From: Gracilimonas sp.
Lineage (GTDB): Bacteria > Bacteroidota > Rhodothermia > Balneolales > Balneolaceae
Assembly (NCBI RefSeq): GCF_017641085.1
Contig: NZ_JAEPPI010000001.1
Coordinates: forward strand, 992,001-1,056,000
Length of the DNA: 64,000 nt
Reading direction: 5' to 3'
Shown here: positions 1 to 49,767 of the stretch, in pieces
Numbering within the stretch: position 1 is the stretch's first letter
Layout: every line of letters begins with the position of its first letter
Program-made: the position numbers and the translations under genes
The notes under the pieces: model-generated
Told to the model about the DNA's origin: nothing
What the model saw: the letters and a program-made list of their open reading frames with translations, nothing else
The model's database searches: none

Positions 1-1041
1 TTCCTGAATAGTGCCTGAGAAAAGATCGCCAAAGAGAGTTAAATCCACATTATAATCGTCTCTTAAGCTATCTTCGCTTAGATATGTATCTCGCACATCA
101 TAGATAAGGGTATTCACACCTGTATTCGCATTCGGAACAACATTAGCCGTAGGAGCGGCACCATCTATGGTTAGTAATTGTACGGTGGGTGCGGTGTTGT
201 CATTAACAGTTGGAGAAACTTGTGCCTGAGTTTCATTACCAGCACCATCTGTAATATCAACATCAATAGTTGGCGATGTAGGTGAAGAAGGGACAAATTC
301 TGTCAAATCAACCAAAAAAGTAAAGGTATAATCTAAAGAGTCATTTCTGGTGGTATCTACGAGAGTACCGGCATTGAAATGATCAGTTATTGATCCAACA
401 GCATTGAATGTTGTATCAACACCATCTAAAACAGACAAGTCAAATACAAAATCATCATTAGAGTACTCAAGAAAATCATCCTGAACCTGTACCCTAAGAG
501 TATCTCCTCCAATTCTTGGTTCATCATCTACCGAATAATTATCTAAAGTGATTGATGCTACAGTCGGAGCATCATCATCTATATAAATATCAACATAGAT
601 CTCTCCGTCAAGAACAGATGCATTATTCGGATCATTATCATCATCTATATAGGCTCTTGCCCGGATGGTATAGAAATTTGTGGCATTGGGAGCGAAAGTA
701 CCTTCATAGGTATTCTCAATCGCCAAACCTGTTGTTGAAAAAGATTCATTTGCAGCAAATGTATCATAGGCACCATCAGCATCAGTACCTTTTTGATATA
801 TCTGAACTGAATTTACTGTATCACCTTGAGCGAATACATCAACTTCGATGTAATCCAGGCTGTCGGTTAAAACGCCCGGATCGATGTCAAATTCAAATAC
901 CGTAGTACTTGTGCCGAGAATGTCAGCAGAATCTGGTGTAACAAATGTATCTTGAAAAACTCCACTTTGAGCATACGCATACTGCGTTCCCAAAAAGAGC
1001 ATAAGAATTGCATACAGAAATGGTAGAAATCTGGATCTCAT
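1..1041 (-). CDS. Large acidic secreted protein, N-terminal part (cut by window edge)
   Basis: The reverse strand is open from an ATG at 1039-1041 to the window edge, giving 347 residues with no stop, so the gene continues outside. It starts with a clear signal peptide: MRSR, a hydrophobic stretch, then AYAQ|SG as the likely cleavage site. The mature part is very rich in Asp, Thr, Asn and Val and very poor in Lys and Arg. It contains Ig/cadherin-like beta-sandwich phrases such as IYVDIYIDDDAPTVASITL and PTIDVDITDGAGNETQAQVS, about 100 residues apart, which suggests repeated extracellular beta domains. I infer a surface or secreted adhesin-like protein, possibly with a C-terminal sorting domain outside the window. 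The exact function is not recognisable. Confidence 0.75.
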   Translation of the reverse strand, partial: MRSRFLPFLYAILMLFLGTQYAYAQSGVFQDTFVTPDSADILGTSTTVFEFDIDPGVLTDSLDYIEVDVFAQGDTVNSVQIYQKGTDADGAYDTFAANESFSTTGLAIENTYEGTFAPNATNFYTIRARAYIDDDNDPNNASVLDGEIYVDIYIDDDAPTVASITLDNYSVDDEPRIGGDTLRVQVQDDFLEYSNDDFVFDLSVLDGVDTTFNAVGSITDHFNAGTLVDTTRNDSLDYTFTFLVDLTEFVPSSPTSPTIDVDITDGAGNETQAQVSPTVNDNTAPTVQLLTIDGAAPTANVVPNANTGVNTLIYDVRDTYLSEDSLRDDYNVDLTLFGDLFSGTIQE

Positions 1042-1433
1042 GATTACCCCTTGTATTATTTATTGTTTGTTTAGTAACCCCTAATCAGTTGAGATAAGCG
1101 TACCCACTTATTTATTCGCTCCCCGTAAAAATGACTAGATGTATTTAGTAAGTACCGAAAAAAAAATTAATTGATCACCGCCTGTTTATGCAGTTTTCAA
1201 TTAAGAATGAGCCTAATGTGTGAATCTTATCTTAATGAGTCAAATTATATTTGTGTTACTGCTACTTCAAGTAATATAAAGCAGGAATCAACTTTGGGAA
1301 CTCATGCATGTTTCTCTTTCTCTTGATTTATTGATGATTTACAGCTTACTTCAAACAACATACCTATGCGGTGTTTCGGGTGCGAAAATCTCGTTATTTC
1401 CTTTACATTTTTAATTTAAATCGGGTAAGCAAT
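1042..1433. other. Intergenic region between divergent genes
   Basis: This 392-base AT-rich stretch separates the leftward secreted-protein gene from the rightward secreted protein/sensor kinase pair. It should hold both promoters. A TAnnTTTG-like -7 box, TATATTTG, lies at 1246-1253 on the plus strand, but I find no TTG at the expected 19-20 bases upstream, so I do not call a promoter. I see no RNA gene, strong hairpin or repeat. Confidence 0.5.
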
Positions 1434-2165
1434 ATGAAAGTAATACAAAAAGCATTTTTTGTGCTATTTATTTTGGGATGGGCATTTATTAATCGAGCTT
1501 CAGCACAATCAGAACCTGAATGTAAACAAGGTGTCAATACATGCATCAATAATAATTTGGATTATGATGTAAACGTATTTGTTGAGATTGATACCACTGC
1601 AAGACAAGGAGCGGGGCGACAACAGAGTCAGAGCAACAGAATTAATCACATTCCTAAAAAATCAAATATCCGATATGACCTTCAGAACCGGTTGCCAAAG
1701 GATGAAATAAAATTTGTGGTTGTACTTGATAGTGTCAAAATGGACAGTTCTAAAGCATTTGGAGTAAAAATAGCATTAGGCAAACCTGGCGATATAACTG
1801 GAACCAGAGGAAATATCAGGTTTAATATCCCACATCATTTTGAGTTTGGAAAATCTTCAGAAAGAGGAAAGTATGAGGCTGTGGTTCACTATAAAAAAAT
1901 ACATTCGGTAAAGCGTAATCAGATTGCTCCACAGCTTGCAGAAATAGCATTTGAGGAAAAATCATGCGAAATGAAAGATGGGGAAAGTTTTACATGTTCG
2001 GGATCAGGAAATAAAAGTCTCAACTTTACATCTAGAGATAGTGAGGACTTTATAGATTTTATTCTTCAAGAATATGATGAAGTGATAAATCATTATATAA
2101 AGTCATATTTCACTGATGTTGATCCGAATATTGAACACCCGGAAACTGATCCTGGAGGGGGATGA
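1434..2165 (+). CDS. Secreted protein of unknown function, coupled to sensor kinase
   Basis: About 243 residues if translation starts at the ATG at 1434, which I prefer to the upstream in-frame ATG at 1371. From 1434 the protein begins with a proper signal peptide (MKVIQKAFFVLFILGWAF, then ASAQ). The mature protein has four cysteines, in a CKQGVNTC motif near the N-terminus and a CEMKDGESFTC motif later, and ends in a Pro/Gly-rich tail. I recognise no domain. The stop codon overlaps the ATG of the downstream sensor kinase (ATGA at 2162-2165), so the two are probably translationally coupled. A periplasmic partner or ligand-binding accessory of the kinase is a reasonable guess. The DNA is AT-rich compared with most of the window. 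Confidence 0.75.
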   Translation: MKVIQKAFFVLFILGWAFINRASAQSEPECKQGVNTCINNNLDYDVNVFVEIDTTARQGAGRQQSQSNRINHIPKKSNIRYDLQNRLPKDEIKFVVVLDSVKMDSSKAFGVKIALGKPGDITGTRGNIRFNIPHHFEFGKSSERGKYEAVVHYKKIHSVKRNQIAPQLAEIAFEEKSCEMKDGESFTCSGSGNKSLNFTSRDSEDFIDFILQEYDEVINHYIKSYFTDVDPNIEHPETDPGGG

Positions 2166-5017
2166 AAATAAGTAAGTTTATTTTTTTTCTTTCTCTAACA
2201 AGTTTGTCAATGTCCGGTTTAGTCCAATCTCAGGGATTACCGGACATTAACTTTTACGGTGTTGAAGACTTTCCGGGAAGCAGGCAAAACTGGGCAATGG
2301 CACAGGATAGTACTGGAACTTTATTTTTTGGAAATAGTTCAGGCATTTTAAGATTCGACGGTATTGAATGGACTTTTATCCATCTTCCGATCAATGATGT
2401 TGTACGCGCATTATTGAAAAGTACCGATGGAGACATCTATTATACTTCTTTAAATGATTTTGGGGTTTTGAAATCAGATTCATTGTCTAATTTTTATGCC
2501 GAAAGTTTTATTTCGAAGTTACCGGAAGATCAACAGACTGGCTTTGGTACTGTTTGGGATGTAAAGGAATATCAAGGCGCTATTTTCTTTCAGGCTGACC
2601 ACCATATTTTTGTATTAGAGGGTGATTCTTTACGAGTAATTGAGTCTGACACTTACCTGAGACGCCTTCATTTTTTTGAAGACAAATTAATCACTACAAA
2701 GAGAGGAACAGGATTAGTCAGTGTAGAGAAAGATACACTATTGCCGATTTTAGAGCCGAATCCTTTTAGTGAAGTATCGCCCTATGTTGTAGAAAAAGTG
2801 GGTGATAATTATTTGTTTCTTAGCAGGGAACAAGGAGTACATTTATATACGGGTGGAGAATTTCGATTATTGAACAGCTCTTTAACAGATTCTCTTATTA
2901 AACATTGGCCATACCGGGCCACCAATATTAATGATAATGAAATAGCTGTTGCCACAGTTTCAGGGGGAGTCTATTTCATTGGTGAGGAGGGTAAAATAAA
3001 TGATGTGTTCACAACTAAAGAAGGGTTGAATACCAATGTTACCTACGATGTTTTTTTAGATGATGAAGAAAATTTATGGGTTACACTAGATAACGGTTTA
3101 TCTCACCTCTTGATAAATAAACCCAATTACAGGATTGATGAAAGAAAAGGTTATCAGGGTTTAAGTACAGGAATTATAGAGTTCCGGGGAAAATTATATG
3201 CGGGTACAACTGAAGGGTTATTTGAAATAGACTTTAACACTGGGGATATAAAAAAGCTCAATACACCTTTCACAAGAGTGATGAGTTTGAAAACAAACGG
3301 AAGTTCTTTGATAGTCAATACAGAGAATGGAATCTATTTTAAAGAAAACGAGAATTTTATAAATACGGGTATATCAGGAGTTCATAGTGTAAGATTAGAT
3401 CCATCAGAAACAGACTTTTTTTACATTTCTCAGGGAAATTTGATATCCAAAGTGTTCTATTCCGGTTTAGAGAGCGAAATTTTTATAGAAGCTGATTCAG
3501 AGTACGATATCGAAGACTTTATTTTCTTTAATAACGAACTCTGGTACACTACAGCTGACAGGCAAATTTTTAGAAACAGAAACTTCAATAAAAAAAATAC
3601 CAAGTATCTTGTGAGATTGGCTGAAAGGGGAGGGTTTGAATTCTTTGAAGTTTTAAAAGACCAATTGACAGTAGGCACCACGAATGGTCTTTTCTACTTT
3701 GACGAATCAGCAGATAAATTTAGAAAAGATTCGACCTTCAATGATATAGAGTTTGTAAGAGATCAAGTAAATGCATTCGAAGTTTGTGGGGCGGACTCGA
3801 TTTGGTTCAGGGTGAATCGAAAAGTAAAACTTGCGACTCGAAAAGATGATAAATGGGAAACTATATCAACTCCATTTCAGTCAATAGGCTTTGAAGAAAC
3901 TGTAAGTCATATTTCTTGCATCAATGATAAGGTTTGGTTTGGTACCTCAAACGGTATTGATATTCTGGAAATTAACTCGAAGAATGCGGTAAGTGCTTTC
4001 AAAACCAATATCACCGGTATTTACATCAACCGAGACTCGCTGATTTATGGAGGCTTCGGCGAACCGCAGCAGCCCATTGTTTTACCTTATGCCAATAACG
4101 AGCTCAGGTTTAGTTATGCAGCTGCCAGTTATGTGGCCCCTGACCGCAACCAGTACCAGGTGAAGCTGGAAGGATTTGATTCAGACTGGAGCACATGGAC
4201 GTCCGAAACCCAGAAAGATTATACCAACATCCCGGAAGGGAAATATATGTTCAGGGTCCGCAGTAAGAATGTGTATGATGTAGCTGGGATTAGTGATGCT
4301 ATCCCGTTTGAAATCCTCCCGCCCTGGTACCGAACCTGGTGGGCCTATTTGTTATACACGTTTACCATTGCCGGGATTTTATACCTGGCTTATAAAATCA
4401 GGATTAACCAGATTCTTCGGGTACAGCGAATACGGAATAATATTGCCAGCGATCTGCACGATGAAGTAAGCGCCACGCTTAGCAGTATCAGTTACTTTGC
4501 AGAGGCTATTAAAAGCGACAAACTGAAAAAAGACAAAAGTCGGTTTGTTAACTTAATTGCCAACAGCGCGGATGACGCCAAAGAAAAAATCACTGACATC
4601 GTGTGGGCTATAAACCCGGAGCATGATGATTGGCTGTCTTTTCTTTCAAAGTGCCGCCGTTTTACCTCAGACCTGCTGGAAAGTAAAGAGATGGATTACA
4701 GCCTCAAGATTGATGAGTTCATTCCCGGTAAGCTGGACATGCAATTACGTCAACATCTGTGGCTGATCTTCAAGGAAATGGTAACCAATGCCGTGCGTCA
4801 TTCCCAAGCTACTCAGCTGGATGTAATCATGAAGTATGAAAACGGCGAGTTAAAACTGGTAGTTCAGGATAATGGAGAAGGTATGGATGTGGATAGCATT
4901 CGAAAAGGGAACGGGCTGGTAAACATCCACAAACGGGCTGAGCAGATAAACGGAGAGATCTCTCTGAAAACATCCGAAGGTTTCGGAACCCGATGGATGT
5001 TAAAAGTTCCTCTTTAA
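2162..5017 (+). CDS. Propeller-type sensor histidine kinase (Reg_prop/Y_Y_Y, HisKA_3)
   Basis: 951-residue membrane sensor. In order: signal peptide (1-24), long periplasmic region with short repeats of the two-component beta-propeller type (about 30-620), a Y_Y_Y-like domain (about 640-715, with YQVKLEGFDSDWSTW), one transmembrane helix (about 722-744, WWAYLLYTFTIAGILYLAY), a HisKA_3 dimerisation domain with the phospho-acceptor His766 in DLHDEVSATLSS, and a HATPase_c domain (N-box near 871, G-box DNGEGMD near 902). It should phosphorylate the NarL-type regulator encoded next. Such sensors often control polysaccharide or outer-membrane functions, but the signal here is unknown. The DNA is AT-rich up to about 4000 and clearly more GC-rich after it, a break that falls between the propeller and the Y_Y_Y/kinase part. 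Confidence 0.9.
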   Translation: MKISKFIFFLSLTSLSMSGLVQSQGLPDINFYGVEDFPGSRQNWAMAQDSTGTLFFGNSSGILRFDGIEWTFIHLPINDVVRALLKSTDGDIYYTSLNDFGVLKSDSLSNFYAESFISKLPEDQQTGFGTVWDVKEYQGAIFFQADHHIFVLEGDSLRVIESDTYLRRLHFFEDKLITTKRGTGLVSVEKDTLLPILEPNPFSEVSPYVVEKVGDNYLFLSREQGVHLYTGGEFRLLNSSLTDSLIKHWPYRATNINDNEIAVATVSGGVYFIGEEGKINDVFTTKEGLNTNVTYDVFLDDEENLWVTLDNGLSHLLINKPNYRIDERKGYQGLSTGIIEFRGKLYAGTTEGLFEIDFNTGDIKKLNTPFTRVMSLKTNGSSLIVNTENGIYFKENENFINTGISGVHSVRLDPSETDFFYISQGNLISKVFYSGLESEIFIEADSEYDIEDFIFFNNELWYTTADRQIFRNRNFNKKNTKYLVRLAERGGFEFFEVLKDQLTVGTTNGLFYFDESADKFRKDSTFNDIEFVRDQVNAFEVCGADSIWFRVNRKVKLATRKDDKWETISTPFQSIGFEETVSHISCINDKVWFGTSNGIDILEINSKNAVSAFKTNITGIYINRDSLIYGGFGEPQQPIVLPYANNELRFSYAAASYVAPDRNQYQVKLEGFDSDWSTWTSETQKDYTNIPEGKYMFRVRSKNVYDVAGISDAIPFEILPPWYRTWWAYLLYTFTIAGILYLAYKIRINQILRVQRIRNNIASDLHDEVSATLSSISYFAEAIKSDKLKKDKSRFVNLIANSADDAKEKITDIVWAINPEHDDWLSFLSKCRRFTSDLLESKEMDYSLKIDEFIPGKLDMQLRQHLWLIFKEMVTNAVRHSQATQLDVIMKYENGELKLVVQDNGEGMDVDSIRKGNGLVNIHKRAEQINGEISLKTSEGFGTRWMLKVPL

Positions 5018-36432: not shown

Positions 36433-36517
36433 CTAAAGCCGGAATAAGGAATACAGCACTAAAAAAACTCAAAAACAAAATGGAATTTGGTGCATGTTAT
36501 TTGGAATTTCCACCGCG

Positions 36518-37585
36518 ATGGCACGAAAACCAAACAGTAACCAGATTTATCAACAGGTAGTCGGAGAAATTAACTCCGGTAACCTCAAACCCATCTACTA
36601 TCTATACGGGGAAGAGGATTTTTATCTGGACCAGCTGCTGGAACGGTTCTCGAAAATCATTCCGCCTGAGCAAAAAGATTTTAATTTCGATTTGCTATAC
36701 GGACAGGAAGTGACGCCGGCACAAGCTCTTTCCATTGCCCGCAGCTTCCCAATGATGGCCGAACGAAGAGTCCTTATTATCCGCAACTTCCTGCAATTAA
36801 GTAAGGGCGGGAGTGAAGACGGCTCACCGGCGGGGCACATAAATGATTTTATCCCTTATATAGAACAACCCAATCCCTCCACAATCCTGGTTTGTTTTGA
36901 TACAAAGAAACCGGCAGGAAACACCAACATCGGTAAGGCCCTGAAAAAAGATAAGAAGGTTGGGTTCCATGAATTTGAACGCATGGCCGATTACCTGATC
37001 CCGGATTGGGTGATTGATTGGGTTCGAAGCCATCATTCCAAAGAAATTGAGCCGGCAGCAGCCCAGTTGTTGTCTCAGTTTGTGGGTAATAACCTGCAGT
37101 TACTGTCCACAGAAATAGATAAAGTGTGCACTTTTGTGGACACTTCTGATACCGTTTCAGAGACCGATGTAAAAAAAATAATCGGCTCATATCGCGAATT
37201 TACTGCCATAGAGCTCAAAGAGGCCATTGTTAAGCGAAATCTGGAACAATCCTTATATATCTCGGAACAGATGTTGCAACACACTAAATCAGACACGGGA
37301 GAATTAATTCGTCTCGTGGGGTTCTTTAACAGTGTGTTTGTAAATGTCTGGCAGATTTTGAGGCTCTCCGAAAAGGGGTTTGCTAAAAATCAGATCCAGA
37401 GCGAGTTAGGGATCGGCAGCAGCTGGTACTTTAACAAACTCTGGGAAGATGCCTCAAACTTTCGCTACAGCGATATGCCCCGGATATTTGAAGCCTTGCT
37501 GGATGCAGATCGCTCCATCAAAGGGTTCAGCACTTTAGACTCCACTTCGATTTTATTCTTCCTGGTCAAGCGAATCATCGGGTAG
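36518..37585 (+). CDS. holA: DNA polymerase III subunit delta
   Basis: 355 residues from the ATG at 36518; an ATG eight codons earlier (36494) is less likely. Marks: LKPIYYLYGEEDFYLDQLLE, FNFDLLYGQEVTPAQALSIA, MMAERRVLIIRNF, and the later helical collar region (LLSQFVGNNLQLLSTEIDKV, then LDADRSIKGFST). The delta subunit opens the beta sliding clamp in the clamp-loader complex. Length is typical. It is followed 50 bases later by the ECF sigma gene. Confidence 0.92.
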   Translation: MARKPNSNQIYQQVVGEINSGNLKPIYYLYGEEDFYLDQLLERFSKIIPPEQKDFNFDLLYGQEVTPAQALSIARSFPMMAERRVLIIRNFLQLSKGGSEDGSPAGHINDFIPYIEQPNPSTILVCFDTKKPAGNTNIGKALKKDKKVGFHEFERMADYLIPDWVIDWVRSHHSKEIEPAAAQLLSQFVGNNLQLLSTEIDKVCTFVDTSDTVSETDVKKIIGSYREFTAIELKEAIVKRNLEQSLYISEQMLQHTKSDTGELIRLVGFFNSVFVNVWQILRLSEKGFAKNQIQSELGIGSSWYFNKLWEDASNFRYSDMPRIFEALLDADRSIKGFSTLDSTSILFFLVKRIIG

Positions 37586-37635: not shown

Positions 37636-38250
37636 ATGGAAGCGTTTCAAGCGGCATCGGTCAAAAACTATGACGACGAAGATTTAATGGAGTATTTCCA
37701 AAACGGAAAAGAACTGGCTTTTAATGAATTGGTGTACCGGTACCAGGATCGTCTTCACAACTTTTTGTATCGCTATACTCATAACCATCAGGACTGTGAA
37801 GACCTGGTGCAGGAAACGTTCCTGAGAGTTCACAAGAGCAAGCATTCTTACGAGCGTATTGCCAAATTTTCGACCTGGATGTACACCATTGCGCTAAACC
37901 TTGCCAAAAGTTTGTATAAAAAGAAGCAACGAATGTATAAGGTGTCAATTCACAAAGATGAATCTGACCCCGATGATCGAGAGCTTCTCCTGGAGGATGC
38001 TACTATCCTTCAGGACGATGCTCTTCATGAGAAATTATGCATGGAGCAGTTGGAGAAAGCCCTGATGGAACTACCGGAAGATTTCCGCGAAGTAATCATA
38101 CTCAGAGACCTTCAGCAACTTTCCTATGAAGAAATCTCTGATATCACGGACATCCCGATGGGAACCGTGAAATCACGAATTAACCGCGGAAGGGCTCAAA
38201 TCCAGGCTTTAATCAAAGATTATGTGCAGCTGGGAACAAACGCCGCATAA
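37636..38250 (+). CDS. ECF-type RNA polymerase sigma factor
   Basis: About 204 residues from the ATG at 37636, which has GGAG at good spacing; an upstream TTG at 37621 is less likely. Region 2: AFNELVYRYQDRLHNFLYRY and DCEDLVQETFLRVHKSKHSY, then FSTWMYTIALNLAKSLYKKK. Region 4: LPEDFREVIILRDLQQLSYE and IPMGTVKSRINRGRAQIQAL. Region 3 is absent, so it is an ECF-type factor. The small gene after it (44 bases downstream) is probably its anti-sigma partner. Its target promoters are unknown. Confidence 0.93.
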   Translation: MEAFQAASVKNYDDEDLMEYFQNGKELAFNELVYRYQDRLHNFLYRYTHNHQDCEDLVQETFLRVHKSKHSYERIAKFSTWMYTIALNLAKSLYKKKQRMYKVSIHKDESDPDDRELLLEDATILQDDALHEKLCMEQLEKALMELPEDFREVIILRDLQQLSYEEISDITDIPMGTVKSRINRGRAQIQALIKDYVQLGTNAA

Positions 38251-38293
38251 TTGAATTAAAGGGGAGTGAAGACTCATTTAGCAAACTCCCCTT

Positions 38294-38530
38294 ATGGATA
38301 ATTTTTTAGATAAAGAATACCATCCGGTAATAGAAGATTTCATCACCGATTATGTGGACGGTGAAATGGGCTCGGTCGAGAGAGCTACTTTTGAAGAAGT
38401 GCTGGTTCATGATGATGACCTTCGTGAACTGGCATTTTCTGCGAAAGAGGGAAAAAAGCTGCTTTCACAATTCAGGGAAGTGAAAGCCGGAGATGGTTTC
38501 ATGGAAAAGCTGATAAAGAAAATCAGTTAA
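38294..38530 (+). CDS. Small putative anti-sigma protein
   Basis: 78 residues, acidic, no membrane helix, no cysteine. The sequence PVIEDFITDYVDGEMGSVER then FEEVLVHDDDLRELAFSAKE resembles the N-terminal helical domain of anti-sigma factors ('D.VDGEL...E...FE..L..D..LR'), without the zinc-binding Cys/His and without a transmembrane sensor part. Lying directly after an ECF sigma gene, it is a good candidate soluble anti-sigma factor. It abuts the stop codon of a convergent membrane-protein gene. A diverged copy without a start codon lies at 39201-39410. Confidence 0.65.
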   Translation: MDNFLDKEYHPVIEDFITDYVDGEMGSVERATFEEVLVHDDDLRELAFSAKEGKKLLSQFREVKAGDGFMEKLIKKIS

Positions 38531-39145
38531 TCAAAAGCTCAGGGATACACTTATTCCCGGAGCTTTTTGTTTTGGGAAATAAGTGGGAGCGAAGGTGAAA
38601 AAAGGCTTTTCATATTCACCATTGTACTCTCGTACATTCTCAGCTGATTTAAAATAATCGTATACCCAGCTGTAGAGAATAATTCCTGCTCCGCCGATTA
38701 TCAGACTTTTCGGGAAAAAACCGATACTACGGTCTCCATCATCCGAATGAGGGGAAAAGATATATTCAAAAAGTCCTAAATAAGTTCCTACTACCATCAG
38801 TCCAAAGCCACCAGAACGGAGGCTTATTCCCTTAACTACAGATTCAAAGTTTTCGGCATATACGTTTCCTGCTGAAGGGCCAAAGACAATTCCTGTTGTA
38901 ATCATGATAAAGCCGAAGTCTGATTTTCTGAAAACAGAACCAATCAAAATGGCTGTTGATGGAACAGCAACGGTTAACATTTTTGCTGTTTTTTCACTCT
39001 TAGGCTTAAATGATATTAATTCATCCGGATGAGGAGGGGGAATTTGATTAACACTGGGTTTTTCATCAACAAGAGGATTGTATTGTGCAGTTGCTAAAAC
39101 AGGCAGAAGTATTGCAACAAGTAAAGGGATTATAAGTCTCTCCAT
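38531..39145 (-). CDS. Exported membrane protein, paralogue 1
   Basis: 204 residues with a signal peptide (MERLIIPLLVAILLPVLATA|QYNPL) and three or four hydrophobic segments, including one with the sequence GIVFGPSAGNVYAEN that the paralogue at 39411 shares. The end, FTFAPTYFPKQKAPGISVSL, is almost identical in both. I do not recognise the family. The closing Phe and alternating pattern could fit an envelope protein. The 3' end also contains the terminator hairpin that serves the convergent anti-sigma gene. Confidence 0.7.
   Translation of the reverse strand: MERLIIPLLVAILLPVLATAQYNPLVDEKPSVNQIPPPHPDELISFKPKSEKTAKMLTVAVPSTAILIGSVFRKSDFGFIMITTGIVFGPSAGNVYAENFESVVKGISLRSGGFGLMVVGTYLGLFEYIFSPHSDDGDRSIGFFPKSLIIGGAGIILYSWVYDYFKSAENVREYNGEYEKPFFTFAPTYFPKQKAPGISVSLSF
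38533..38568 (+). terminator. Terminator inside the 3' end of the convergent gene
   Basis: AAAAGCTC (38533-38540) pairs with GAGCTTTT (38560-38567), with an inner GGGA/TCCC pair, followed by T. It can end the sigma/anti-sigma transcript and is embedded in the coding sequence of the opposite gene. The same structure recurs at 39413-39448 in the duplicate. Confidence 0.6.
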
Positions 39146-39200
39146 AACATCACCATGTTGTTTAAATCATTACCAAGATATTAATTCACAGAAAAGAATC

Positions 39201-39410
39201 CACCCGGTAATAGAAGATTTCATCAGCGATTATATGGACGATGAAATGGGCTCGGTCGAGAGAGCTACTTTTGAAGAAGTGCTGGTTCACGATGATGACC
39301 TTCGTGAGCTGGCATTTTCTGCGAAAGAAGGAAAAAAACTGCTTTCACAGTTCATGGAAGTGAAGGCCGGAGATGATTTCATGGAAAAGCTGATGAAGAA
39401 AATCAGTTGA
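39201..39410 (+). pseudogene. 5'-truncated copy of the putative anti-sigma gene
   Basis: From the His codon at 39201 the frame is intact to the TGA at 39408-39410 and encodes HPVIEDFISDYMDDEMGSVE onward, nearly identical to residues 10-78 of the gene at 38294. The first nine codons, including the ATG and its upstream context, are missing; they are replaced by sequence from upstream of the membrane-protein gene. The first ATG in frame (39234) would remove a further 11 residues. I regard it as a probable pseudogene, though a 58-residue product is possible. Confidence 0.65.
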
Positions 39411-40049
39411 TCAAAAGCTCAGGGATACACTTATTCCCGGGGCTTTTTCTTTTGGGAAATAAGTGGGAGCGAAGGTAAACTCCACAGGTTGCTTTTCCTC
39501 ATTGTATTTTCTCACATTCGCCATGGAGTTGAATAGATCATAAAAGGTACTGTAAACAAGCAAAGCAGAACCTCCAAAGAATAGTGCAGCAGCAGTAATC
39601 TCGCTAAAGCCATCTAAGTCTTTTCTAACTCCACCATAAGGTTCATTGCCTAACTGATTTAATAAACCCATATAAGCACCAACAGTAATCATTCCTCCAC
39701 TTATAGCTCTTGTTACAATACCTTTACCTACAGCTTTGGGATTTTCGGCGTACATATTTCCTGCGGATGGTCCGATGATAATCCCGCCTACGGCTAAAAC
39801 CGCTCCAGGCATATTACTGTCATTTTTAAGTAAGGCCTGTCCGGCAATAAATGAAACAGTTGGTACCGCCGCTGACAAAAGAAATGCAACTCCTTCTTTT
39901 TTAGGTTTAAACTCCTCCGTGGAAAAGCGGATAAAATTTTTATCAATATTCGTATTGGTAGGTGAGGAAGTTGCTAATGGGTTGTATTGAGCAGCAACCA
40001 CAGTGGGAATGAAAACGATGAGAAGAAAATGAAATGTAAATCTCTTCAT
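39411..40049 (-). CDS. Exported membrane protein, paralogue 2
   Basis: 212 residues. Signal peptide MKRFTFHFLLIVFIPTVVAA|QYNPL, hydrophobic segments as in paralogue 1, shared GIIIGPSAGNMYAEN, and an ending FTFAPTYFPKEKAPGISVSL that differs by one residue over the last stretch. The middle is clearly diverged, with only moderate similarity. Family unknown. Its start region is followed by the 30-base edge repeat of the duplication. Confidence 0.7.
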   Translation of the reverse strand: MKRFTFHFLLIVFIPTVVAAQYNPLATSSPTNTNIDKNFIRFSTEEFKPKKEGVAFLLSAAVPTVSFIAGQALLKNDSNMPGAVLAVGGIIIGPSAGNMYAENPKAVGKGIVTRAISGGMITVGAYMGLLNQLGNEPYGGVRKDLDGFSEITAAALFFGGSALLVYSTFYDLFNSMANVRKYNEEKQPVEFTFAPTYFPKEKAPGISVSLSF

Positions 40050-40189
40050 AATAAGGCCTTACTGATTAAATGTTATTTAAGATATTAATTCACTGAAAAG
40101 AATCCACCAAATCCGGGAAATTATTGGATGGTGAAACTCTGCTTAAAATCACTTTACTTAGAGCCAATCATTAACAAAAAAATATTCCC

Positions 40190-41098
40190 TTGGCCTCAGG
40201 TTCAAAAAAAGTAATTTATGCCGCTCTCATCGGTAACGGACTCATTTCAATCACTAAATTTATCGCTGCTGTAATTACCGGCAGTTCGGCCATGATGTCG
40301 GAAGGGATCCACTCAGTGGTAGATACCGGAAATCAGGTTCTGCTGTTAATGGGATTGAAGAAAGCCGAAAAACCGGCCGACGCCGACTTTCCTTTTGGTC
40401 ATGGTAAGGAAGTCTATTTCTGGAGTTTTGTGGTGGCTATAATGATTTTTGCAGTGGGTTCCGGTATTTCCATTTATGAAGGGATTCACAGCCTGTCCGA
40501 TCCCCATGAAATCACCAACCCTATGGTGAATTACATTGTACTGGGGCTGGCCATGATTTTTGAAGCCTTCGCCTGGTATTTTGCCTGGAAAGAGTTTAAT
40601 AAGACCAAAGGCGACCGAAGTTATTACGAAGCCGTACGCAAAGAAAAAGACCCAACTACTTTTGTGGTTCTCTTTGAAGACTCAGCCGCTATGCTGGGAC
40701 TCATGGTGGCTTTCGTCGGGGTATTTCTTTCACAGTTGACCGGAATCCTCATTTTTGATGGAATTGCGTCTATCGTTATTGGGGTGATTTTAGGCGGAAC
40801 TGCAATCTGGCTGGCCCATGAAACCAAAGGGCTCCTCATTGGTGAGAGTGCCGACCGTGAAATAATTGAAAGCATACAGAAAATGGGGAATACCATGGAG
40901 TCCATCCACATGGTGAAAGAGGTGCTGACGTTACACATGGGGCCTCAGTACATTTTGGTAACGATTAACGCTGATTTTGTATCTGAGTTGAATTCGGATC
41001 AGGTTGAGTGGGGTACGGCAGAACTATCTGCGGAGATTAAGAAAACGTACCCACGTGTGAAGCGGGTTTTTATTGAAGCTGAAGGGGATTCTAAATAA
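40190..41098 (+). CDS. Cation diffusion facilitator (CDF) family transporter
   Basis: 302 residues with six membrane helices. Helix 2 carries the metal motif SEGIHSVVDTGNQVLLL (His and Asp ligands), followed by FPFGHGKEVYFWSFVVAIMI. Helix 5 has FEDSAAMLGLMVAFVG. The C-terminal cytoplasmic domain has a His-rich pattern (SIHMVKEVLTLHMGPQYILV). It exports divalent cations such as zinc, cobalt or iron by proton exchange. The start codon is TTG at 40190, with no later ATG before the first helix. Its 3' end overlaps that of the convergent gene by 8 bases. Confidence 0.9.
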   Translation: MASGSKKVIYAALIGNGLISITKFIAAVITGSSAMMSEGIHSVVDTGNQVLLLMGLKKAEKPADADFPFGHGKEVYFWSFVVAIMIFAVGSGISIYEGIHSLSDPHEITNPMVNYIVLGLAMIFEAFAWYFAWKEFNKTKGDRSYYEAVRKEKDPTTFVVLFEDSAAMLGLMVAFVGVFLSQLTGILIFDGIASIVIGVILGGTAIWLAHETKGLLIGESADREIIESIQKMGNTMESIHMVKEVLTLHMGPQYILVTINADFVSELNSDQVEWGTAELSAEIKKTYPRVKRVFIEAEGDSK

Positions 41099-48762: not shown

Positions 48763-49155
48763 ATTATTATTAGCGAACGGTTTGGAGGTATTTCAAAAAT
48801 AATTTCAGGCCCTTAGGCTTACTGGCTATTATGGTAATCCTGAAATTATGCTAATCAAGTTTTCATAATTCTGAACCTTGATTTATGGGATTGAAGAATT
48901 TGCTTGATTAAATAATAAGTATAGCATTTTGAGGAAGAGCTATCCCATAAATAATTGGTCCACATTTACCGATAAAAATTCTTCCTTCCGGTAAGCGTTG
49001 TTCTCTGAATAAGACCATTCTCTTCTGCGAAAATCCATTCTATCCGTCTCATCAGTGTTCGGCTATTGTTTGATTTTAAATTTCCGATAAACCAAAAAAT
49101 CTATATCTATTCACTCATTTTTATTACTTTAAAGTGTCCATATAATCTGAGTGAT
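48763..49155. other. Intergenic region with nested inverted repeats
   Basis: This 393-base AT-rich stretch holds several perfect inverted repeats: ATAATTTCAGG/CCTGAAATTAT (48799-48809 with 48839-48849), ATTTATGGGA/TCCCATAAAT (48881-48890 with 48943-48952), and AATCAAG/CTTGATT (48853-48859 with 48903-48909). Dispersed repeat copy B lies at 49027-49068. No T-run follows the stems. I see no gene; the first hairpin may help end the upstream transcript. Confidence 0.5.
49027..49068. repeat. Dispersed intergenic repeat, copy B
   Basis: GCGAAAATCCATTCTATCCG followed by TCTCATCAGTGTTCGGCTAT; same family as 36391-36432 and 49721-49767. It precedes the toxin-antitoxin module. Confidence 0.5.
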
Positions 49156-49374
49156 ATGAATAAAAAAGTAAAAGAAGTCACAGAAAAGTTAGAGGAACTT
49201 CCAAAAGAGGAGCGGGAGTCATTTGCTGCTTTCGTATTGGAGGAACTTGAAAGTGAAGAGAGATGGTCGCAATTATTTAAGAAGTCTGAATCGGTTCTTA
49301 CTAATTTAGCCAACGAAGCTATCGAGGAATATCAAGCCGGTAAAACAAAGAAACTGGATCAAGACAAGTTATGA
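49156..49374 (+). CDS. Putative antitoxin of RelE-type module
   Basis: 72 residues from the ATG at 49156; a longer frame upstream begins in AT-rich non-coding sequence and I reject it. MNKKVKEVTEKLEELPKEER, FAAFVLEELESEERW, then NEAIEEYQAGKTKKLDQDKL. Highly charged and helical, with the ending 'A..E...GKT..L' typical of small antitoxins of this type. It overlaps the toxin gene by four bases (ATGA). No DNA-binding domain is evident, so regulation may depend on the complex. Confidence 0.75.
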   Translation: MNKKVKEVTEKLEELPKEERESFAAFVLEELESEERWSQLFKKSESVLTNLANEAIEEYQAGKTKKLDQDKL

Positions 49375-49640
49375 TTTCCAGAACAACTAATAAGTTTTGG
49401 AAATGTTACGATCAACTTCCTCACAGTATTAAAGAAAAGGCGCAAAAAGCGTACCGATTCTTTGAAGAGAACCCCGCTCACCCCAGCTTAAGGTTCAAAA
49501 AAATCAATGAGGATCCTAAAGTATACTCTGTAAGGATAACAATAGATTATCGTGCACTCGGAGTAATGGAAAAAGATAAGATTATTTGGTTTTGGATTGG
49601 GTCTCACGATGATTATGAGGCACTTATAAATCAATTATAA
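49371..49640 (+). CDS. RelE/HigB-type toxin
   Basis: 89 residues. FWKCYDQLPHSIKEKAQKAY, FFEENPAHPSLRFKKIN, YSVRITIDYRALGV and IIWFWIGSHDDYEALI are the known blocks of a compact RelE-superfamily toxin ('NP.HPSL..K', 'R....YRA', 'W.WIGSHD.Y'). These usually act as ribosome-dependent or independent mRNA interferases; the catalytic residues are not certain here. Coupled to the antitoxin gene upstream. Confidence 0.87.
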   Translation: MISRTTNKFWKCYDQLPHSIKEKAQKAYRFFEENPAHPSLRFKKINEDPKVYSVRITIDYRALGVMEKDKIIWFWIGSHDDYEALINQL

Positions 49641-49720
49641 TTAGTAATTCAGATTCGGTTAATATCTAATCAAACTATCAGGCTTTTAAATTTATCCTCT
49701 CTTTGCCTGCAGTCAGCCCA

Positions 49721-49767
49721 TTCAAAAAACCATCCTATTCTATCCTTGTCATCCGTGTCCCATTCTT
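49721..49767. repeat. Dispersed intergenic repeat, copy C
   Basis: TTCAAAAAACCATCCTATTC followed by TATCCTTGTCATCCGTGTCC and CATTCTT. Same family as copies A and B; it ends just before the metH promoter candidate. Confidence 0.5.

Follow-up and report, generated by a model that had tools for sequence, protein, structure and literature searches.

Two adjacent copies of a segment with an anti-sigma gene and a convergent membrane protein gene (mem) lie beside an ECF sigma factor gene in the window, that is, the whole 64,000-nucleotide stretch of Gracilimonas sp. DNA analysed here. The most economical reading, and in our view a rather probable one, is that the tandem is young and carries a captured, older mem allele, since the second membrane gene (mem2) predates the split from the relative G005, the second anti-sigma copy (asig2) seems to date from near the split from the closest relative G001, and the joint of the two units is G001-like.

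Organization of the locus

The host genome (3.49 Mb) was assembled in 7 contigs and is 98% complete, and the locus lies inside a long contig. A DNA polymerase III delta gene (36494-37585) is followed by the ECF sigma factor gene (37636-38250, + strand, 204 aa), which the preliminary description had placed beside the repeat and which is recognized by its Sigma70_r2 (1.3e-18) and r4_2 (2.1e-16) domain matches. Unit 1 then includes anti-sigma copy 1 (asig1; 38294-38530, + strand, 78 aa) and mem1 (38531-39145, - strand), coding for an exported, hydrophobic protein of 204 aa. The two genes are convergent and exactly abutting, with stop codons at 38528-38530 and 38531-38533. Unit 2 includes the start-less asig2 (39205-39410, + strand), which is free of internal stops, and mem2 (39411-40049, - strand), a 212-aa paralogue of mem1; to its right lies a cation efflux protein gene (40190-41098). 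At every Balneolaceae locus checked, the sigma gene adjoins the DNA polymerase III delta gene and the anti-sigma gene sits beside its ECF sigma gene. Among named records, the nearest orthologues of the sigma gene carry Gracilimonas and Balneola labels (89-97%), and the constraint on the sigma gene is very strong (dN 0 against G001, and 0.015 against G005 at high dS). Elsewhere in the window, 1-4033 and 48772-49738 are poorly matched or unmatched in the syntenic G001 region and are likely to be strain-specific insertions or losses.

Hydropathy analysis of the mem proteins shows a signal-like segment at the N-terminus as well as several hydrophobic stretches, and the proteins share a conserved GPSxGxxYAE-type motif; they may act in the membrane or envelope. 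They matched no Pfam or NCBIfam family, a mem profile had no match among the PDB sequences, and a structure prediction from the two sequences was unusable (pLDDT 39). Tandem pairs of this family were also observed in distant Bacteroidota (L136 730-1365 and 1492-2142; G160, G141 and G347).

Mosaic identity of the two units

The two direct copies form units of 880-904 bp. The repeat finder returned a 300-nt ungapped match of 91% at a spacing of 880 (38297-38596 and 39177-39476), and at the far end an 86-nt match of 74% at a spacing of 904. After gapped alignment, the best two-break model divided the units into three blocks: the anti-sigma body and terminator (94.2% over 275 columns, ending at 38596/39476), the membrane gene (50.3% over 569 columns), and the last 29 columns (96.6%, from 39175/40079). 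The log-likelihood gain of a single break was already 86.9, compared with at most 14.3 in 1000 shuffles. The mosaic described earlier is therefore real and its breaks are sharp; identity plotted along the units changes abruptly and does not fall off smoothly. The near-identity of the first 270 bases or so was likewise borne out, although it is not limited to that part, as a third short block lies at the far end.

The divergent cassette (39477-40079, - strand) comprises mem2 without its last ~21 codons, together with about 30 bp upstream, and the two-break fit places its edges at the terminator and at a conserved element upstream of mem2 (AGATATTAATTCACTGAAAAGAATCCACC, 40080-40108). This element is identical in G001 and has one difference from its counterpart before mem1 (39176-39204); from its position it is a candidate promoter.

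Silent sites showed the same division as overall identity. Between the anti-sigma copies all fourfold sites match (24/24) and dS is 0.19; the comparison of mem1 with mem2, leaving out the final 21 codons, gives 10 matches at 31 such sites, close to the chance level, and several indels also separate these genes. Within the last 21 codons, 10 of 11 fourfold sites match. Since synonymous sites are split in this way, selection at the protein level is ruled out as the cause, and the earlier claim that one age cannot fit both parts holds. The anti-sigma gene itself is not frozen, because its dS (NG86) exceeds 1 against G005, G006 and G004.

The terminator-type hairpin of unit 1 (38533-38567) lies within the mem1 3' end and has a T-rich tail on the + strand; that of unit 2 is at 39413-39447 (-15.2 kcal/mol, z -2.1 on the + strand). 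The unit 1 hairpin was absent from the list of a simple consensus terminator scan. Its folding is better than that of shuffles (z -3.1 on the + strand, -4.4 on the - strand), and this, together with the T-rich tail, suggests that it probably ends the sigma operon while lying within the mem coding 3' end. The last mem codons (KAPGISVSLSF) fit a loosely conserved C-terminus of the family. The preliminary description had offered strong selection on this segment as one explanation of its near-identity. Slow evolution is indeed present, as the last 21 codons of mem1 are 87% identical to G005 and the remainder of mem is 67% identical; however, it is insufficient, because the units are 97% identical to each other over these codons. 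In G001 the hairpin is weaker owing to one G to T change (L118 2210-2245; -8.9 versus -16.4 kcal/mol on the + strand).

Comparison with relatives and ages of the parts

None of the nine other Gracilimonas genomes has more than one unit, which answers the question of unit number raised earlier. Exactly one anti-sigma match was found in eight of them, and the ninth, an incomplete genome, has none. The mem gene is present only in G001 and G005, as a single copy in each; the remaining genomes with an anti-sigma gene are without it. The space that separates the anti-sigma gene from the cation efflux gene is a variable slot across Gracilimonas. For example, G006 (L120) has an unrelated 578-aa exported glycosidase-like gene there, the slot of G007 is empty, and other genes follow in G002 and G004.

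The single unit of G001 is orthologous to unit 1. Across the bulk of the window, identity to G001 is about 95-96% (mostly 91-99% by 500-bp stretch), which makes G001 a time marker; the 95% identity of asig2 to G001 equals the background divergence. The preliminary description had considered the anti-sigma segment to be homogenized by gene conversion, and the sharp identity breaks along the two units do resemble those of tandem paralogues treated in this way. However, over 70 codons asig1 and asig2 are 92.9% identical, and each is closer to G001 (96.7% and 95.2%, respectively). As the copies within the genome are no more alike than either is to the orthologue, conversion after the G001 split is not seen. 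The polarized anti-sigma sites are divided 4, 2 and 1, with at most one uniting asig1 and asig2 against G001. Phylogenetic analysis placed asig2 just outside the pair of asig1 and G001 with support of only 65-72%, and it thus probably split off around or slightly before the G001 split, at a date that is loose because of this support. An introgression tract towards the cation efflux gene was also considered and rejected; the sequence right of unit 2 is ~95% identical to G001, which is within the background of the window.

The mem genes point to a different age. The mem1 protein is 97% identical to its G001 orthologue and 57-62% identical to G005 mem; mem2 is about 41-43% identical to mem1 and 44-48% identical to G005 mem. 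Because mem1 is closer to G005 mem (57%) than to mem2, mem2 branched off before the G005 split. No relative of mem2 closer than G005 mem (48%) was found in the genus, order or phylum samples, and these samples, with one genome per species, hold no single unit with a mem2-type gene. The two membrane genes had been described as products of the present duplication that diverged later. This does not agree with their saturated silent sites in a tandem that looks young, and for the same reason mem2 is probably older than the tandem.

Joint of the two units

The joint (AAAGAATCCACCCGGTA, 39193-39209) is identical to the G001 sequence upstream of its mem gene, and enters the anti-sigma gene near codon 11. 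Its partner motif in unit 1 is AAAGAATACCATCCGGTA at 38312-38329; the hexamer CCGGTA is common to both, within an imperfect 17/18-bp match. Upstream of mem, G001 reads AAAGAATCCACCCGGTACGGG, and the start of the anti-sigma gene, alike in unit 1 and G001, reads AAAGAATACCATCCGGTAATAG. The window joint AAAGAATCCACCCGGTAATAG is exactly the former running into the latter, with CCGGTA in common. Therefore, the single-unit state of G001 is sufficient to give the tandem by one unequal exchange. The tandem arrangement reported earlier is thus real, with adjacent direct copies and a joint that is predicted from a single-copy relative. Taken by itself, the joint could also fit an older tandem from which G001 later dropped a unit. 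Beyond its right end, unit 2 is followed by sequence matching G001 except at 40109-40113 (AAATC versus CGGTA in G001).

Origin of the tandem

The most likely sequence of events is as follows. The ancestor would have had one unit like that of G001, with sigma gene, anti-sigma gene and a convergent mem gene bearing the terminator hairpin in its 3' end. A second anti-sigma/mem segment was then probably added in tandem by unequal recombination in the present lineage, through joining at the short match shared by the sequence ahead of mem1 and the anti-sigma start on one side, and through ordinary homologous sequence towards the cation efflux gene on the other. The older allele could have arrived with the added DNA, if this came from a sibling strain already bearing mem2, which would resemble homology-facilitated additive recombination. 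Alternatively, mem2 might have replaced the cassette of unit 2 soon after, with crossovers in the conserved terminator and the upstream element. By either route, the cell would have gained two diverged membrane proteins, and asig2 would be a carried-along flank. The process behind the tandem is ordinary recombination. Additive integration that relies on homology at one end and on an illegitimate junction at the opposite end has been described (PMC3240628). In homology-facilitated illegitimate recombination (PMC3240628), the added DNA is likewise joined through homology on a single side only; the present case differs in that only 6 bp are exact within the imperfect match, and it is inferred from one genome pair.

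Some observations speak against allele capture. The genomes compared include no single-unit mem2 donor, with G005 mem as the nearest gene; the loose tree position of asig2 makes the date of the copy loose; and the 5-bp block beside unit 2 is unaccounted for. The main rival is an older tandem, formed before the G005 split, in which mem1 and mem2 diverged, gene conversion copied the anti-sigma/terminator part of unit 1 over that of unit 2 shortly before the G001 split, and both G001 and G005 afterwards lost unit 2. It explains the mosaic and the age gap with no donor, tandem pairs of the mem family do exist in other Bacteroidota genomes, and recombination between the upstream repeats could readily delete a unit, with a locus like that of G001 as the outcome. 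We regard it as unlikely, though still deserving of weight, because it calls for one conversion and two or more independent losses, conversion has left no signal after the G001 split (at most one polarized site joins the copies against G001), and no relative keeps two units.

The other explanations have much less in their favour. A chimeric assembly of mixed strains might set two alleles of one locus in tandem, but the exact match at the joint (6 bp) is too short for an assembler overlap and the joint lies within a long contig, so an artefact is very improbable. A recent plain duplication followed by fast divergence of mem2 towards a new function would put the units side by side in a single event; positive selection on a protein does not saturate silent sites, however, and the chance-level fourfold matches and indels of mem against the low dS of the anti-sigma copies refute this, unless silent sites mutate at a far higher rate in one gene than in the adjacent one. 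We give it almost no credence. Hardly more credible is a uniform old age with strong selection keeping just the anti-sigma/terminator segment alike: the terminator and mem 3' end do evolve slowly (87% to G005, compared with 67% elsewhere in mem), but the anti-sigma dS above 1 (NG86) against G005, G006 and G004 requires asig2 to be recent, and selection at the protein level is unlikely on a copy with no start codon. A wider and more doubtful suggestion may be made. The variable slot next to the anti-sigma gene, which is empty or holds other genes in other Gracilimonas, could be an allelic cassette site, where divergent mem alleles are swapped between the fixed terminator and upstream element and the tandem stores two of them.

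The anti-sigma gene and its leader hairpin

The AlphaFold model of anti-sigma copy 1 (pLDDT 83) has helices at 11-21, 27-39 and 41-77, the layout expected for a class I anti-sigma domain. In the PDB fold search its top 11 matches were all anti-sigma domains, with TM scores of about 0.5 and individually weak E-values of at least 0.3, which agrees with the role first proposed for this gene. The protein has no zinc ligands and no transmembrane segment. It matched no curated family above cut-off, the zf-HC2 match being 15.4 bits (E 0.02) under a cut-off of 22.2; there was no NCBIfam match, and its profile gave only chance matches among PDB sequences. A literature search on Gracilimonas sigma factors returned nothing useful. 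The protein probably works like a minimal class I anti-sigma factor (ASDI), and is classed by this likeness and not as a proven member because of the lack of a curated family match. Class I ASDI proteins (RslA, RsiW, RskA and ChrR) also have a helical anti-sigma domain encoded directly behind the ECF sigma gene; whereas the present protein has only 78 aa and is without the Hx3Cx2C zinc motif and a transmembrane or sensor domain. Non-zinc class I anti-sigma domains are common (about 44%; PMC7406223). Homologous sigma genes in Neomarinimicrobiota (L042-L059) are followed by an anti-sigma-like protein with an HLxxCxxC (CxxC) motif. The zinc ligands of that version are absent from the Balneolaceae form, and might have been lost in the Balneolaceae lineage.

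A leader hairpin with a 9-bp stem and a 17-nt loop (38259-38293, + strand) follows the sigma stop codon and directly abuts the anti-sigma ATG (z -3.1 against shuffles). Compensatory changes preserve it in most of the Balneolaceae examined (L022-L041, G001, G005-G007), and it had no family match in Rfam. The stem is well paired in 16 of the 18 hairpins tabulated, with poor pairing in L033 and L035; its sequence varies by clade (GGGGAGT/ACTCCCC, AAGGTAATG/CATTACCTT and GAGGGTAATAGATG/CATTTATTACCCTC), and single G-C to A-T stem swaps occur within the genus in L023 and L024. At some loci the folding energy is no better than that of shuffles. The sigma stop codon is close to the stem (8 nt before it in the present genome), and thus a ribosome finishing sigma could open the stem and let anti-sigma translation start.

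The hairpin stands before copy 1 only. The loss of the copy 2 start codon noted earlier is confirmed: the ATG and the first 8-9 codons are gone at the joint, the leader hairpin is absent, and the first in-frame ATG is at 39234. No promoter for this copy is evident, and it is probably silent.

These results indicate that a locus with the look of duplication plus divergence can be a young repeat that carries an older allele, and that silent sites together with one close relative can tell the two apart. Moreover, the conserved and previously undescribed hairpin at the anti-sigma start codon is a candidate means by which Balneolaceae would adjust the ratio of sigma to anti-sigma.
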